A stretch of 46,267 nt of DNA from assembly GCA_017527675.1 (NCBI GenBank), contig JAFXPU010000009.1, positions 1 to 46,267 of the forward strand, in the 5' to 3' direction. Below, one piece after another: positions 3,780-10,962 of this stretch (position 1 is the stretch's first letter; each line of letters begins with the position of its first letter). Position numbers and translations under genes: made by a program. The notes below the pieces were generated by a model that saw nothing but the letters and a program-made list of their open reading frames with translations, ran no database searches and had not been told where the DNA came from. The stretch is from Bacilli bacterium (GTDB lineage Bacteria > Bacillota_I > Bacilli_A > RF39 > UBA660).

Positions 3780-3808
3780 AAAAATTAAAGATTTAATCTT
3801 TAATTTTT
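3780..3808 (-). terminator. Terminator after the large pilin-like gene
   Basis: A 13-bp A/T-rich inverted repeat (AAAAATTAAAGAT, loop TTA, then its complement) is followed on the minus strand by a T run. It covers the stop codon of the pilin-like gene and separates it from comEA. Confidence 0.75.
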
Positions 3809-5789
3809 AATCACTTATAAATTTAATAATTACTTTACCATTTCCTGATTGTGCACCAGTTGTAGCATTTACATTAGTAAATAGATAAGAATTATTTTTA
3901 CAATTTGAATAATCGCTGCTTTCATTTGTTGATACACATGATGAACCACCAGCACCTGATAATAATTCAAATACTTCAGCAGCTCCACCAGCGCCACCAT
4001 AGAAGCCACCGCCGCCACCAGCAGCAGCCATACCGTCGCCACCTTCACCTATTTTTCCAGAGTAGCCTGTCCAGCCACCTACATATTCATTAAAGTGAAC
4101 TGTAGCACCGTATTCACCACCAGCAGTTTGTGTACCGCCTTGAGCATATCTAGCTACACAAGTTTTAGGATTGCTTGGTGAGAAATCACTAGTATATGAA
4201 CATGACATTTCTTCAGACATTTTACCTTGCTCACCATAAATACAGTAATCACAACTATCTCTGCCAACTGAACCAGCTTGAACACCATTTACATCACCAC
4301 CAGCACCACCAGCAACACCGAAATTAGATCCGCCGCCGCCGCCACCAGCTGTAATAATTCTATTTGCATAAGCAGTACCACCTACACGAATGTCAGATGC
4401 ACCACCACCGCCATAGGTACCAGTTCCACCACCATTATAACCGCCTTGGTTAGTAGTTCCTTGTCCACCTACATAGATATTTAAATTTGTATTTCTATTA
4501 AATCTTACTCGACCAGTAATTTTAGCACCCTTACCACCAGCACCTGTGCCGCCACCACCTTGAGCTCCATCTACCTCAACTTCATATGTTCCAGAACATG
4601 GAACTTTGAATGTATATTTATCAGCAGTTTCAAATGTCCATATTTGATTTGCTGGGTAATTACACATATTAACTTTTATTTCAGTTCCAATTGTTGTTTC
4701 ACTACTTGTATTACCAGCTTTATCGGTAATTGTTCCAGCAGGAATAACAATACTTAATTTACCTGATTGAGTCATATTTTTAAGAGTTAATGTATATTCA
4801 ACACCATTACTCATGTTTTTAACTGGTGATAATGATTTAGTGACTGAACTTGATACATCAGTGTTACCAATTTTAATAACAATATTATTTAGACTTAAAG
4901 AACTAGATTGATAGTTTTCATCTGTTCCTCTAAATGTTATTGTAACAGTATGTTCTTGATATGCATAATTGATATTTTCAAGTTCACTATTCATGCTATT
5001 ATTATCATTTGTCTTTTGATAGAAAGTCCATGTTGGTTTATTATTATCAAAACGATATGGGCCAAAACGATGATATGTTTCATTTCCTATTTTAACAAGT
5101 ACACCACCCATAGTAGATGTATTTGTTTGACCATCTATTACATTTGCTAAACGTTTAATAAATACATAATATGTACCTGTTTTATCTGCTCCAATTGTTT
5201 GAGCAGTACCATTTGTATAATTTGTCCATGCACCATTTTTTAAACTATTTGATGAACTAGATAAATAATATTGAAATGATTGACCTGTAGTAGATGATAA
5301 ATTATCATAAGTTATATTTAAAGCAAAAGATTTTCTATAATCATTAAATGTTGTTGCATTAATAGTTGGAGCTAAAACATTTGGTGCATAATCAGTACAT
5401 TGACCACCTAATGTAGAAGCATCATCAACAACTGTAAATTCAAATGATGAGCCAACTTTAGTAACTAAAATATTTATCATACTATCATCTAAAAGTTCAC
5501 CTGTTCTTGGATCTTTTATATCTAAATCAACAGCACCGTCATTTTTTAATTCAGTTAAAGTAATATAACATTCATTGACATTTGTTGGTAATTTAGTAAT
5601 ATTATCTTCATCAGTAAACCAATCTTTAGCAGATAATTCAATGTTATTTAATGTATTACTATATAATTTACTTTTACTACTTTTTAAAGTATTACTAATT
5701 ACTGGTGTAATTAATAATGCCAAAAGAGCAATAATTACTATTACACCTATTAATTCAACTAAAGTAAACCCCTTACTCTTATTATTCAT
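3807..5789 (-). CDS. Very large pilin-like protein with Ig-like and glycine-rich domains
   Basis: About 660 aa. The N-terminus has a type IV prepilin signal (KGFTLVELIG, residues about 6-15) and a hydrophobic helix. A pseudopilin-like region containing KDPRTGE follows, also present in the short pilin at 41129. The middle (about 140-385) is beta-rich and ends in a bacterial Ig-like unit with TDKAGNTSS. The last 270 residues form a glycine-rich domain (GAGGKGAKITG, GGGGASDIRVGG, AGGGGGG, NGKVIIKF) like the ALK/LTK-type glycine-rich family, with several Cys. The ATG at 5789 has AGGTGAT; an upstream GTG/ATG-type extension is unlikely. Assembly into a surface fibre or a role near DNA uptake is inference. 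Glycine codons make this gene locally GC-richer. Confidence 0.8.
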   Translation of the reverse strand: MNNKSKGFTLVELIGVIVIIALLALLITPVISNTLKSSKSKLYSNTLNNIELSAKDWFTDEDNITKLPTNVNECYITLTELKNDGAVDLDIKDPRTGELLDDSMINILVTKVGSSFEFTVVDDASTLGGQCTDYAPNVLAPTINATTFNDYRKSFALNITYDNLSSTTGQSFQYYLSSSSNSLKNGAWTNYTNGTAQTIGADKTGTYYVFIKRLANVIDGQTNTSTMGGVLVKIGNETYHRFGPYRFDNNKPTWTFYQKTNDNNSMNSELENINYAYQEHTVTITFRGTDENYQSSSLSLNNIVIKIGNTDVSSSVTKSLSPVKNMSNGVEYTLTLKNMTQSGKLSIVIPAGTITDKAGNTSSETTIGTEIKVNMCNYPANQIWTFETADKYTFKVPCSGTYEVEVDGAQGGGGTGAGGKGAKITGRVRFNRNTNLNIYVGGQGTTNQGGYNGGGTGTYGGGGASDIRVGGTAYANRIITAGGGGGGSNFGVAGGAGGDVNGVQAGSVGRDSCDYCIYGEQGKMSEEMSCSYTSDFSPSNPKTCVARYAQGGTQTAGGEYGATVHFNEYVGGWTGYSGKIGEGGDGMAAAGGGGGFYGGAGGAAEVFELLSGAGGSSCVSTNESSDYSNCKNNSYLFTNVNATTGAQSGNGKVIIKFISD

Positions 5790-5823
5790 ATCATCACCTA
5801 TTATAAGTATAACATATATAGAC

Positions 5824-5853
5824 AAAAAAAACTATAAATTTTATAGTTTTTTT
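5824..5853 (-). terminator. Terminator of the gatCAB-asnS operon
   Basis: An inverted repeat ACTATAAA/TTTATAGT flanked by A and T runs overlaps the asnS stop and gives a hairpin with a T tract on the minus strand. Confidence 0.8.
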
Positions 5854-7222
5854 AATATTCACAATTGCCTGGAGTACGTGGATATGGAATAACATCACGA
5901 ATGTTTTCAACACCTGTTAAATAGATAAGTAATCTTTCAAATCCCATACCAAAACCTGAATGAACACATCCTCCATATTTTCTTAAATTCAAATACCACT
6001 CAGTTTCAGGTACACCCATTTCTTTCATACGTTTAACAAGCTTATCATAGTCTTCTTCACGTTGTGAACCACCACATAATTCACCTGCTCCTGGGACTTC
6101 TAAGTCAACAGCAGCAACAGTTTCATTATCTGGGTTCAATTTCATATAGAATGCTTTAATATCTTTTGGCCAATCTGTAATAAATACTGGACCATTAAAG
6201 TATTCTGTAATATATTTTTCATGTTCTTTAGCAATATCTTCACCTTGAATTGGTTCAAATTCCCATTTAACAGGAGCTTTTTGTAGGATATCTATTACAT
6301 CATGATGAGATATACGTGTAAAGTTACTGTTAATTAATTTAGTTAATTTTTCTTTTAAACCATTTTCAACAAACTTATCAAAGAAATCCATCTCATCAGG
6401 ACAATTATCTAAAACATATTTAACAACATATTTTAACATATCTTCCATAACGTCCATATCTTGTTTTAAATCACAAAAGGCCATTTCTGGTTCCATCATC
6501 CAAAATTCATTTGCATGTGTTTTAGTATTAGAGTTTTCAGCTCTAAATGTTGGTCCAAATGTATAAGTCTTTTTATAAGCCATAGCAAAAGTTTCAGCTT
6601 CTAGTTGACCTGATACAGTTAGGTTAGCTCTTTTACCAAAAAAATCCTTTGTATAATCAACCTTACCAGATGATGCAACTTTATCTAAATCAAGTGTTGT
6701 AACTTGAAACATTTCCCCTGCTCCTTCACAATCACTAGTTGTAAAAAGTGGAGCATGGAAATATACAAAACCATGATCTTGAAAATATTTATGAATAGCG
6801 TAAGCTGTTACACTTCTAACTCTGAATACCGCTTGAAATAAGTTTGTACGAGGACGAAGGTATGCTTGTTCTCTTAAAAATTCACGAGTTGGACGGCCTT
6901 TTGATTGAAGTGGATAATCTTCAGGACAATCTCCTTCTAAAACAATATCTTTTACTTTAATTTCATAGTCTTGTCCAGCACCTTCTGATTCAATTAATGT
7001 ACCAGTTACTGTAATAGCACAACCAATATGTAATTTAGCTATTTCTTCAAAATTTGCTAAATCTGATGTATAAACAAGTTGAATATGTTTAAAACAAGTA
7101 CCATCAGAAAAATCTATAAAGCCAAAATCTTTTTGTTTACGGTGATTTCTAATCCAACCTTGTAATTTTACTTCACTTCCTAGTAGTTCTTGGCTTTTTT
7201 CATATAATTCTTTTAAATCCAT
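5852..7222 (-). CDS. asnS: Asparaginyl-tRNA synthetase
   Basis: About 456 aa class IIb synthetase charging tRNA-Asn. An N-terminal OB-fold (VKLQGWIRNHRKQKDFGFID) is followed by class II motifs: LREQAYLRPRTN and FVYFHAPLFT (motif 1), FGPTFRAENSNT (motif 2) and GMGFERLLIYLTG (motif 3). The motifs GEMFQVTTLDL, DFFGKRANLTVSG and ENIRDVIPYPRTPG match AsnRS rather than AspRS. The ATG at 7222 follows an AGGTGA that overlaps the gatB stop; a GTG at 7231 is less likely. It is the last gene of the T-box/tRNA-Asn/gatCAB transcript, so enzyme, amidotransferase and tRNA share one control region. Confidence 0.96.
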   Translation of the reverse strand: MDLKELYEKSQELLGSEVKLQGWIRNHRKQKDFGFIDFSDGTCFKHIQLVYTSDLANFEEIAKLHIGCAITVTGTLIESEGAGQDYEIKVKDIVLEGDCPEDYPLQSKGRPTREFLREQAYLRPRTNLFQAVFRVRSVTAYAIHKYFQDHGFVYFHAPLFTTSDCEGAGEMFQVTTLDLDKVASSGKVDYTKDFFGKRANLTVSGQLEAETFAMAYKKTYTFGPTFRAENSNTKTHANEFWMMEPEMAFCDLKQDMDVMEDMLKYVVKYVLDNCPDEMDFFDKFVENGLKEKLTKLINSNFTRISHHDVIDILQKAPVKWEFEPIQGEDIAKEHEKYITEYFNGPVFITDWPKDIKAFYMKLNPDNETVAAVDLEVPGAGELCGGSQREEDYDKLVKRMKEMGVPETEWYLNLRKYGGCVHSGFGMGFERLLIYLTGVENIRDVIPYPRTPGNCEY

Positions 7223-7231
7223 ATTTATCAC

Positions 7232-8689
7232 CTATCTTTTATCTATTTCTTCTTTTATTATTTTAGCAGTCAAACTTGGATTTGCTTGACCACGAGTTGC
7301 CTTCATTATTTGACCTACAAAGAAATCAAAAACATTTCTTCCTTTGCGGTACTCCTCAATTAATTCTAAATGTTCTTCAATTGCTTTAATAGCAAGTTCA
7401 CGAATTAAATTATCATCACCAATTTGTTCCATACCAAGTGATTTAACAACCTCATTTGGATCTTTTTTATCTTCTAAAACGTGTGTTAATACTTCCTTAC
7501 TTTGTTTAGAAGATATTTTACCATCATCAACTAATTTCATTAAATCAAATAGCATTTTTGGTGTTAAATAAATATCTTTTATTTCTAATTCGTTTTTATT
7601 TAAATATCCCAAAATAGTACTTGTTAACCAATTGGCTGTTTTTTTAGGATCACTTCCTAATGTAAGTGTCTCTTCATAAAAATTGGAAATATCCTTTTCT
7701 TTTACCAAAATTGAAGCATCATATTCAGATAAACCAAATTGATTCATATATTTATTTTTTCTTTCAATTGGCATTTCAGGAATAGTAGCACGTATTTCAT
7801 CTAACCATTCACCTGTTATTTTAAATTTAGGAATATTTGGTTCAACAAAATATTTATAATCTATAGCATTTGCTTTATTACGCATATAAATAGTTGTCAT
7901 TGTATCTTCATCAAAACGTCTCGTTTGTTGTTCCATCTTATCATATTCACCAGATTCTTTTAGAGCAATTTGACGATCTATTTCGTAATTAATTGCATCA
8001 CGAACACCACCAAATGAGTTGACGTTTTTAATTTCTACTTTTGTACCCCAATTATCAGGATTAGATATATCCTTATCTTTATCACAAATAGAAACATTTA
8101 CATCACATCTAATTTGTCCTTTTTTAGAATCAGCATCTGAAATATCAGCATATTGATAAATAGCACGCATAGCTTCCAAGAAAGCAACAGCCTCTTCTGC
8201 TGAATGCATATCTGGTTCTGTTACTAGTTCTAAAAGTGGAACACCAGCACGATTATAATCTAGAGTTGAGAATGTTGGATAGTGATCTTGTGATGCTGAA
8301 TCTTCTTCAAGGTGAATATTGTTAATTCTAACTCTTTTTGTTTCACCTTTAAATTCATAATCAAGATAACCATATATACCAACTGGAGCTGGTTTAGTTT
8401 CCTGAGTTATCTGATATCCTTTTGGTAAGTCAGGATAATAATAATTTTTTCTTTCAAAATACATGTATTCTGGTTGTTTACAATTTAAAATCATACTAGC
8501 TTTTAATGCTAATCTAACGGCTTCTTTATTAACAACTGGAAGTGTACCTGGAAATGCAAGATCTACTGGTCTAATAAAACTATTTGCTTCATCAGAATAA
8601 CCATTTTTAGCACTAGAAAATACTTTTGAATTTGTTTTAGACATTTCACAGTGCATTTCTAAACCTATCATTACTTGATAATTATCCAT
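7232..8689 (-). CDS. gatB: Asp-tRNA(Asn)/Glu-tRNA(Gln) amidotransferase subunit B
   Basis: About 485 aa, normal length. GatB binds the misacylated tRNA and activates it with ATP. Characteristic GatB stretches are VMIGLEMHCEM, FYPDLPKGYQITQ-like YYYPDLPKGYQITQ, HLEEDSA, DYNRAGVPLLELVTEPDMHS and the C-terminal YqeY-like tail (GQIMKATRGQANP). The ATG at 8689 has AGGAGG; the start overlaps the gatA stop by 8 nt. As AsnRS is encoded next door, the complex probably serves mainly to make Gln-tRNA(Gln), which assumes the organism lacks GlnRS. Confidence 0.97.
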   Translation of the reverse strand: MDNYQVMIGLEMHCEMSKTNSKVFSSAKNGYSDEANSFIRPVDLAFPGTLPVVNKEAVRLALKASMILNCKQPEYMYFERKNYYYPDLPKGYQITQETKPAPVGIYGYLDYEFKGETKRVRINNIHLEEDSASQDHYPTFSTLDYNRAGVPLLELVTEPDMHSAEEAVAFLEAMRAIYQYADISDADSKKGQIRCDVNVSICDKDKDISNPDNWGTKVEIKNVNSFGGVRDAINYEIDRQIALKESGEYDKMEQQTRRFDEDTMTTIYMRNKANAIDYKYFVEPNIPKFKITGEWLDEIRATIPEMPIERKNKYMNQFGLSEYDASILVKEKDISNFYEETLTLGSDPKKTANWLTSTILGYLNKNELEIKDIYLTPKMLFDLMKLVDDGKISSKQSKEVLTHVLEDKKDPNEVVKSLGMEQIGDDNLIRELAIKAIEEHLELIEEYRKGRNVFDFFVGQIMKATRGQANPSLTAKIIKEEIDKR

Positions 8690-10142
8690 TATTAACACCT
8701 CCTGCTACTTGTCCTTTATAATTCATTTTAGACTCCAAAGCATAAGCTAAGTTTAAAACAGTTTGGTCATTATAACAATTACCAGTAATATTTATTCCTA
8801 CTGGTAGATTATTTACAAAACCATCAGGAATTGTAATTGATGGAAAACCACCAAAGTTACCAATTTGTAAATGTTCTTCAAGTATTTGCGTATTATTGTC
8901 TAGTTGATCTTTTGAATTTTCAATTAATTTAGCAGGACCTGATCCAACTGGTAAAACAACAGCATCATAGTCTTTAAATAAATTTTTCCAAGCATCTACA
9001 AGTAATCTTCTTACTCTTTGAGCATTATGGAAATATCTATCTTTATTTTCTGCTTGTAAAACATAGGAACCAATTACAAATCTTCTTTTAATAAGCGGAG
9101 AAAATCCTTTAGTACGATATTCCTTCATCATATCAATATAATTATCAGCTTTTGCACGTGGTCCAAATATTATACCTGTTAAGTTAGACATATTTGATGT
9201 TGCTTCAGCACAAGAAATAACAACATAAACTGATGCTAAAGCATTAAGTAAAGTGTGATCTACTGATACTTCAGTTACTTCTACACCTAATTCTTTATAT
9301 TTATTAATTATATTATGGAAATTTGCTAAATGCTCTTTTAATTCATCGCTAGCATTTGGATAATTATCTAAATTACAGATTTCTTTAATGTAACATACTT
9401 TTTTACCCTTTACATCATCAGTTAAATTATCATATAGATGAATATCACTTGAATCCCATGATGTCATATCATTTTCATCAATACCCTTCATAGCATCGGT
9501 AACAATAGCTGCATCTTCAACTGTTCTAGTTAAACAACCACAATGATCTAGGCTTGAAGCAAATGGGAATAATCCATAACGTGAAATCATACCATATGTT
9601 GGTTTATAACCTACAATGCCACAATAAGCAGCTGGTTTACGAATAGAATCACCGGTATCTGATCCTGTTGCATATGGATAAACACCAGCTGCAACTGCAC
9701 AAGCAGAACCAGCTGATGAACCAGCACATATACGTTTATTATCCCATGGATTTAAAACAATACCTGTATGACCAGTTGTACCAGTACCACCCATTCCAAA
9801 TTCATCCATAACAGTTTTAGAAGTTAAAATTGCTCCTTTGTTTTCAAGATTTTTTATAGCTGTAGCTGTAAAAAATGGAACATAATCCTTTAAGGTATTT
9901 GATGAACCTGTAGATAAAATATCTTTTGTACTATAGTTATCCTTACAAGTATATGGGATACCTGAAAGCAATGAGTCATTTACATCAGTTGGTTTAACAC
10001 TATCTAAAATAGTAACAAAAGCATTACATTCATCTTGTAATTTATGAGAATTTTTAATAGCATCATCAATTAATTCTTGGCAAGTTATCTCACCATTAAT
10101 TAACATATCATGTAATTCTTTTATACTTTTACTACCTAACAT
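8682..10142 (-). CDS. gatA: Asp-tRNA(Asn)/Glu-tRNA(Gln) amidotransferase subunit A
   Basis: 486 aa amidase-signature subunit that releases ammonia from glutamine. The catalytic Ser-cis-Ser-Lys set is visible: Lys in YTCKDNY, the cis-Ser in GSSAGSACAVAAG and the nucleophile Ser in TGSDTGDSIRKPAAYCG. In many GatA proteins the last motif reads DTGGS; here it is DTGDS, a variant that leaves the Ser intact. The start codon overlaps the gatC stop (TAATG), indicating translational coupling. Confidence 0.97.
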   Translation of the reverse strand: MLGSKSIKELHDMLINGEITCQELIDDAIKNSHKLQDECNAFVTILDSVKPTDVNDSLLSGIPYTCKDNYSTKDILSTGSSNTLKDYVPFFTATAIKNLENKGAILTSKTVMDEFGMGGTGTTGHTGIVLNPWDNKRICAGSSAGSACAVAAGVYPYATGSDTGDSIRKPAAYCGIVGYKPTYGMISRYGLFPFASSLDHCGCLTRTVEDAAIVTDAMKGIDENDMTSWDSSDIHLYDNLTDDVKGKKVCYIKEICNLDNYPNASDELKEHLANFHNIINKYKELGVEVTEVSVDHTLLNALASVYVVISCAEATSNMSNLTGIIFGPRAKADNYIDMMKEYRTKGFSPLIKRRFVIGSYVLQAENKDRYFHNAQRVRRLLVDAWKNLFKDYDAVVLPVGSGPAKLIENSKDQLDNNTQILEEHLQIGNFGGFPSITIPDGFVNNLPVGINITGNCYNDQTVLNLAYALESKMNYKGQVAGGVNNG

Positions 10143-10438
10143 TATCCCACCACCTTTGGAACTTTGATTTCTGTATCAATATAATCATCACAGTTCTTTA
10201 AAGCATCATCAATACTTATTGATTCCTCAGCTTTATCTTCACGAAGTTCACAAACAAAATCATCTAAGCAATGAGTCATTGGTTCAACTTCACTAATGTT
10301 TGGAATTGTATTGATAATATCAATATTTTGATCAATATAAGCAAATTCATCTAATACCATTTGGTTTTCTTCATCAGTTAAACCAATTAATAATTTATCT
10401 GCTAAATCATCAACTATTTCTTTTGTAAATTTTTCCAT
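10142..10438 (-). CDS. gatC: Asp-tRNA(Asn)/Glu-tRNA(Gln) amidotransferase subunit C
   Basis: 98 aa, the usual size for GatC, which wraps around and stabilises GatA-GatB. The helical N-terminus (DDLADKLLIGLTDEENQMVL), the SEVEPMTH hinge and the Asp/Glu-rich C-terminus are typical. AAGGTGAT precedes the ATG. It is first in the gatC-gatA-gatB-asnS series and follows a hairpin terminator that separates it from the tRNA genes, so its expression depends on read-through or a promoter not recognised here. Confidence 0.93.
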   Translation of the reverse strand: MEKFTKEIVDDLADKLLIGLTDEENQMVLDEFAYIDQNIDIINTIPNISEVEPMTHCLDDFVCELREDKAEESISIDDALKNCDDYIDTEIKVPKVVG

Positions 10439-10456: not shown

Positions 10457-10485
10457 ATAAAAAAATAAGTCCTAATAAGGACTTA
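10457..10485 (-). terminator. Intrinsic terminator/attenuator between the tRNA-Asn pair and gatC
   Basis: The perfect inverted repeat TAAGTCCT/AGGACTTA with a 4-nt loop is followed on the minus strand by seven T. It sits 15 nt after the second tRNA and 20 nt before gatC, so it can cut transcription between the RNA genes and the protein genes. Confidence 0.82.
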
Positions 10486-10499
10486 CTATAAACAAAAAA

Positions 10500-10575
10500 T
10501 GGCGCCTGATGTAGGACTCGGACCTACGACCTGCCGGTTAACAGCCGGATGCTCTACCAACTGAGCTAATCAGGC
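10500..10575 (-). tRNA. tRNA-Asn(GTT), second of two copies
   Basis: 76 nt including an encoded CCA. Acceptor stem GCCTGAT/ATCAGGC, discriminator G, D stem GCTC/GAGC, anticodon loop CTGTTAA with anticodon GTT, T stem GTAGG/CCTAC. The T loop reads TCCGAGT, so position 55 is C instead of the nearly universal T. Pair 27-43 is a T/C mismatch. It differs from the other copy only in the acceptor stem. Confidence 0.95.
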
Positions 10576-10585
10576 AAACAAAGAA

Positions 10586-10661
10586 TGGCGCTCAATGTAG
10601 GACTCGGACCTACGACCTGCCGGTTAACAGCCGGATGCTCTACCAACTGAGCTAATTGAGC
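10586..10661 (-). tRNA. tRNA-Asn(GTT), first of two copies
   Basis: 76 nt with encoded CCA. Acceptor stem GCTCAAT/ATTGAGC, discriminator G, anticodon GTT. From the D arm to the T arm it is identical to the copy 10 nt downstream, including the C55 T loop; the acceptor stems differ with both strands changed together. It is the first gene after the T-box leader. Confidence 0.95.
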
Positions 10662-10681
10662 ATATTTGGCATTTTTGTTTC

Positions 10682-10927
10682 CGTCCTTATTGGGACGAAA
10701 CATTTCCGCGGTGCCACCCAACTTGCCATATAACTATGGCCACTTTATCGATTTCAAAAAAAATCGTGTAATTTGATAACGGGTTACCACCGATTAAACT
10801 TACTCATTTCTTTTCAGTCTAACAACTAGTGAGTGTTCTTCATAATACATCCATTTATTAGCTTCCACCATACCTAACTCGCTTGAAACTTCATATACTA
10901 TTACTTTTCTCACGTCAAAACGCTTAT
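10682..10927 (-). promoter_or_regulatory. T-box riboswitch with Asn (AAC) specifier
   Basis: The leader of about 245 nt carries the T-box sequence GGGTGGCACCGCGG (10706-10719). The antiterminator pairs TTGGG with CCCAA and GCG with CGT around the bulge TGGCACC. The variable base in TGGC is C, complementary to the discriminator G of the two tRNA-Asn genes downstream. Stem I shows AGCGAG, the distal ATGGTGGAAGC loop and the specifier context GAA-G-AAC-ACT, which places the Asn codon AAC at 10835-10837. The competing hairpin CGTCC/GGACG (10682-10697) is not followed by a T run but by an A-rich stretch, so it is not a standard terminator. The first gene after it is a tRNA. Confidence 0.93.
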
Positions 10928-10933
10928 ATACCA

Positions 10934-10962
10934 ATTATATATAAAAGGTTATTGTTTGTCAA
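10934..10962 (-). promoter_or_regulatory. Strong sigma-A promoter of the T-box/tRNA-Asn/gatCAB/asnS operon
   Basis: Perfect consensus: TTGACA (10957-10962), 17-bp spacer, TATAAT (10934-10939). It lies between the RNase J terminator and the T-box leader. Confidence 0.9.

Follow-up and report, generated by a model that had tools for sequence, protein, structure and literature searches.

A class I T-box leader with an expression platform apparently split by two tRNA-Asn genes

Class I transcriptional T-box riboswitches (RF00230; PMC7778990) combine a stem I, a specifier, a UGGN bulge, an antiterminator and a competing hairpin, with uncharged tRNA as the ON signal. An early survey found no T-boxes before amidotransferase genes (PMC2494555). 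T-box control of gatCAB was described for Clostridium acetobutylicum in a 2013 study (summarised in PMC4052509); a first-pass annotation of the DNA analysed here had also remarked that such T-boxes are known in Clostridium. As far as that summary goes, an Asn T-box precedes a transamidation operon and no tRNA genes are mentioned between leader and operon. Among the open-access papers searched, we found none that reported a T-box preceding tRNA genes or having its terminator beyond them. Here, we describe an Asn T-box leader from a Bacilli bacterium, located in a 46,267-nucleotide stretch of DNA (hereafter the window), which likewise precedes a transamidation operon and possesses all of the class I parts listed above, and for which the same ON logic is expected. 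Unlike in class I T-boxes, its competing hairpin is no terminator; the terminator lies about 200 nt further on, after two tRNA genes, and appears to be joined to the T-box by a long-range helix. Covariation in about 35 relatives suggests that the switch reaches across the tRNAs and controls only the enzyme genes downstream. The aptamer is thus that of an ordinary class I T-box, whereas the expression platform differs and appears to be a new variant of T-box platform.

The locus is read on the (-) strand in the order promoter, T-box, two tRNA-Asn(GTT) genes and gatC-gatA-gatB-asnS, and consists of the following features (coordinates in the window).

10934..10962, (-): promoter TTGACA-17-TATAAT, 12/12 match to the sigma-70-type consensus, transcript start at about 10927
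10688..10927, (-): T-box leader from stem I to antiterminator (RF00230, 120.1 bits)
10713..10721, (-): segment 1, UUGGG plus the T-box UGGC (10716-10713), from the sequence and Rfam alignment
10690..10697, (-): segment 2, CGUCCCAA, from the sequence and Rfam alignment
10676..10702, (-): competing hairpin UGUUUCGUCC-CAAUAA-GGACGGAAACA, segments 2:3, without U-tract, from the sequence and the minimum free energy (MFE) fold
10683..10691, (-): segment 3, AAUAAGGAC, loop and 3' arm of the competing hairpin, from covariation in 36 loci
10586..10661, (-): tRNA-Asn(GTT) gene 1 (ARAGORN, Rfam RF00005)
10500..10575, (-): tRNA-Asn(GTT) gene 2 (ARAGORN, Rfam RF00005)
10474..10482, (-): segment 4, GUCCUUAUU, 5' arm and loop of the distal terminator, from covariation
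10459..10487, (-): distal intrinsic terminator AGUAAGUCCUUAUUAGGACUUAUU with U-tract (UUUUU), segments 4:5, from the terminator scan
10142..10438, (-): gatC (TIGR00135, above cut-off)
8682..10142, (-): gatA (TIGR00132, 438.6 bits, E 2.6e-131; best match, under the curated cut-off of 481)
7232..8698, (-): gatB (TIGR00133, above cut-off)
5852..7231, (-): asnS (TIGR00457, above cut-off)

Segment 1 is the 5' side of the antiterminator and pairs with the 3' end of the tRNA, including its discriminator G; segment 2 serves both as the 3' side of the antiterminator and as the 5' arm of the competing hairpin. Both tRNA genes have discriminator G and an encoded CCA. No second promoter for the tRNAs or gatC was found in the window, including the interval from 10662 to 10681 directly before the tRNAs, which supports the co-transcription of the two tRNAs with gatCAB and asnS that the first-pass annotation had proposed. 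In the 1.13 Mb genome assembly (88.6% complete) no further tRNA-Asn genes were seen and no glnS match exceeded the cut-off; therefore, GatCAB probably serves Gln-tRNA(Gln) and AsnS serves Asn. Downstream of asnS, the window also encodes a large protein (3807-5825, (-)) whose N-terminus resembles type IV pilin/ComGC and whose C-terminal part is rich in Gly.

The T-box at 10688-10927 (-) is real and Asn-specific. RF00230 matches end to end over 10927-10688 (-) with 120.1 bits (E 3.7e-26; gathering threshold 93), and the T-boxes of relatives score 113-152 bits. All of the parts attributed to the leader at first reading are present, including the helices UUGGG/CCCAA and GCG/CGU. The specifier context GAA-G-AAC-AC presents the Asn codon AAC, in keeping with the asnS and tRNA-Asn genes downstream, and almost all relatives in which the specifier loop is readable have AAC as well; UGGC (10716-10713) is complementary to the discriminator G, as had been noted, and to the CCA of both window tRNAs. 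A U-tracted terminator competing with the antiterminator is a trait of most transcriptional T-boxes and not of the aptamer, and translational T-boxes likewise lack it; in the window the hairpin that directly competes with the antiterminator is present and its U-tract is absent. A two-codon Asn/Glu T-box was considered and rejected as a conserved feature: GAAC in the window contains overlapping GAA and AAC, but most relatives have UAAC or AAAC, so that, in comparison with the two-codon case of C. acetobutylicum (as summarised in PMC4052509), only the Asn codon is conserved among them.

The competing hairpin (10702-10676) is predicted in the MFE fold of the window RNA, is followed by AAAATGCC without a U-tract and was not called by the terminator scan. 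On the (-) strand, the interval from T-box to tRNAs yielded no intrinsic terminator, and the distal terminator, called at 10487-10464, 3' of the second tRNA, is the only terminator-like site on that strand between 10000 and 11200. The genome contains nine other T-boxes, of which eight were read in the sense direction (the ninth, L007, lies on the other strand and was left out of this comparison); all eight carry 7-10 T's right after the hairpin, and the window T-box is therefore exceptional within its own genome. In six of these T-boxes (L001, L003, L004, L005, L008 and L010) the 5' arm of the terminator apparently lies upstream of the T-box bulge, as in AAGTATTATG...CATAATACTT-TTTTTT of L003, which would place the antiterminator inside the terminator; in L009 the pairing partner of the terminator arm is the T-box sequence itself.

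These observations bear on the simplest reading of the locus, in which attenuation at the T-box takes place before the tRNAs and uncharged tRNA-Asn increases the production of tRNA-Asn as well as of gatCAB-asnS, the positive loop claimed in the first-pass annotation. The T-box does lie directly upstream of the tRNAs with no promoter between them, no other tRNA-Asn genes were seen in the genome, and about 20 relatives have exactly the layout required, with a U-tracted T-box terminator predicted directly before 1-5 tRNA-Asn genes. However, in the window AAAATGCC stands where the U-tract should be and the terminator lies beyond the tRNAs, which leaves the positive loop unsupported here and makes this reading improbable. 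Because the only terminator comes after both tRNAs, T-box control of the window's own tRNAs is unlikely, and only gatCAB-asnS should respond.

The link between the T-box and the distal terminator is provided by segment 3, AAUAAGGAC, which is the exact complement of segment 4, GUCCUUAUU, about 200 nt distant and on the far side of both tRNAs. The pairing was assessed in 36 loci of the window's layout (35 unique), with the T-box hairpin as the sole anchor for segment 3 and the AAG of the terminator arm as the sole anchor for segment 4. Mean contiguous pairing was 6.20 bp against 4.54 bp (sd 0.19) with swapped partners (p<=5e-5, 20,000 shuffles), and columns 4, 5 and 6 exceeded column shuffles (p=0.0002, 0.0002 and 0.0012, respectively), although the loci are related by descent and these permutation p-values are therefore optimistic. 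Columns 1-4 are paired in 35/35 and column 5 in 33/35; the covarying pair types are C-G/U-A in column 4, U-A/G-C/C-G/G-U in column 5 and A-U/U-A/C-G/U-G in column 6. Slid registers gave 1.1-3.0 pairs of six, compared with 5.63 in the true register. On a tree built from aptamer and tRNA only, excluding segments 3 and 4, positions 2 and 4-7 showed four double and 20 one-sided pair-keeping changes, with ten breaks and 14 restorations, against 0-1 double and 6-8 one-sided pair-keeping changes in slid registers. Partner swaps within genera still reduced contiguous pairing (p=0.017); within-genus covariation of column pairs did not reach significance (pooled p=0.064), because members of a genus differ little from one another. 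In one genus (g48), position 4 of segment 3 is an A that does not pair with the C of segment 2 but pairs with the U of segment 4; the T-box hairpin has thus lost a pair that is retained in the long-range helix. In 27/36 transcripts no site pairs better with segment 4 than segment 3 does, another site being better in 9/36, and the 3:4 helix is short, at 4-5 bp, in roughly one third of the loci, mostly in g48.

The similarity of the arms might instead have been inherited if the distal terminator originated as a copy of the T-box hairpin and merely sets a fixed level of readthrough into the operon. GTCC..GGAC is common to both hairpins and some of the covariation spread follows clades, but covariation also occurs at loop positions 5-6, which neither hairpin needs, double changes arose after divergence, and g48 loses the 2:3 pair while keeping 3:4; we therefore regard a copied terminator as unlikely. 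That the 3:4 helix, which does covary and enclose the tRNAs, is a processing stalk of the kind that brackets rRNA genes, with the T-box a non-switching relic, is very unlikely, given that the helix is too short to be a typical RNase III substrate and uses exactly the arms of the T-box hairpin and the terminator, that the whole T-box is kept, including specifier and UGGC, and that relatives with U-tracted T-boxes do not have the helix.

We favour, with a probability of roughly three in four, an Asn T-box whose expression platform is split by the two tRNA-Asn genes and operates as a relay of five segments. The parts, the absent U-tract, the terminator position and the 3:4 covariation can be read from the sequence; from these we infer the response to tRNA, the termination efficiencies and a pairing of segments 3 and 4 ahead of RNase P cutting. 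Binding of uncharged tRNA-Asn would lead segments 1 and 2 to form the antiterminator and leave segment 3 free; free segment 3 would reach over both tRNA genes, pair with the nascent segment 4 and block the distal terminator (4:5), so that segment 5 would remain single and gatCAB-asnS would be transcribed. With charged tRNA, segments 2 and 3 would form the U-less hairpin, segment 4 would pair with segment 5 and transcription would end after the tRNAs. The tRNA-Asn genes would be transcribed in both states, and only the enzymes would respond. Such a constitutive supply fits these genes being the only source of tRNA-Asn found. In the window the 3:4 duplex (-11.3 kcal/mol) and the 4:5 terminator (-11.2 kcal/mol) are alike in energy, and folds of the window RNA, both unconstrained and with the antiterminator constrained, favour the distal terminator, so that the switch would have to be kinetic. 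A kinetic decision between 3:4 and 4:5 is plausible because their energies are alike and segment 4 can meet segment 3 before segment 5 is made. A point against the relay is that RNase P cleavage could sever segment 3 before segment 4 is made.

Relatives were collected by a pattern search (T-box core, a 55-85 nt gap and an Asn anticodon loop) combined with gatA searches, which yielded 58 distinct loci with a T-box ahead of 1-5 tRNA-Asn genes. In the sample this layout is confined to the window's bacterial family, in which 25/386 genomes match, and is near universal in some genera (12/12, 13/16, 6/7 and 5/6). The placing of cognate tRNAs inside the controlled unit, initially considered unusual, is not unique to this genome and recurs across the family. 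Two pattern matches in other families of the class were rejected as T-boxes before protein genes, not tRNAs, and a plasmid collection gave tRNA-like matches only.

Two classes were distinguished by a run of five T's in the T-box-tRNA interval, as the automatic terminator scan misses bulged terminators. Class A (about 20 loci, mostly UGGU) has a canonical U-tracted terminator between T-box and tRNAs. Class B (the window and 35 loci, mostly UGGC) has no U-tract at the T-box and a terminator after the last tRNA, with arms of the type AAGUCC/AAGUCU/AAGCCU. Class B loci contain at most two tRNA-Asn genes and class A loci up to five, which fits a constitutive tRNA supply in the former. On the tree, class B forms one large clade and, separately, genus g94 (L046, L055) within the class A clade; L144 is an intermediate with both terminators. 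In the class A loci that possess a second terminator (L016, L054, L110), its arms are unrelated and none of them is complementary; UGGC replaces UGGU in class A loci L084 and L122.

It seems to us somewhat better than an even bet that functional RNA genes can interrupt a riboswitch platform, the decision being relayed across constitutively made copies of the ligand tRNA to a remote terminator, and that in sister lineages the T-box gates what are apparently the only tRNA-Asn genes, in positive feedback. If so, the control exerted by a riboswitch can extend to a terminator about 200 nt downstream, with folded RNA genes embedded in between, and control of the synthetase and amidotransferase is separated from the supply of the sensed tRNA, whereas close relatives couple them. 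With both designs occurring naturally in one family, pairs of them could then be used to test feedback on the ligand of a riboswitch. Annotation in which T-box leaders are cut at the first U-tract would hide or misjudge the split layout; TBDB, for example, trimmed extended sequences from some sources to end in a five-U run (PMC7778990).

The coupled design is predicted for five class A loci (L090, L098, L114, L184 and L189), which share the Asn specifier and the tRNA and gat genes with the window but have a canonical terminator before the tRNAs, mostly none after them, and mostly UGGU; in all five the U-tracted T-box terminator stands directly before 3-4 tRNA-Asn genes. In the genome of L189 (G235) the tRNA-Asn genes after this terminator are the only ones found, which would make a true positive loop on the ligand. 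In two loci (L059, L062) a pair of tandem T-boxes flanks 4-5 tRNA-Asn genes, the first T-box with a terminator before the tRNAs and the second following the tRNAs; the second T-box was confirmed by Rfam in L059, after four tRNAs, and recognized by eye in the sequence of L062. In L016 a promoter-like TTGACA..TAAAAT lies between T-box and tRNA, with an unrelated terminator after the tRNA. In genus g174 (L072) the same split leader is followed, after the terminator, by asnS alone instead of gatC, with no gatCAB.
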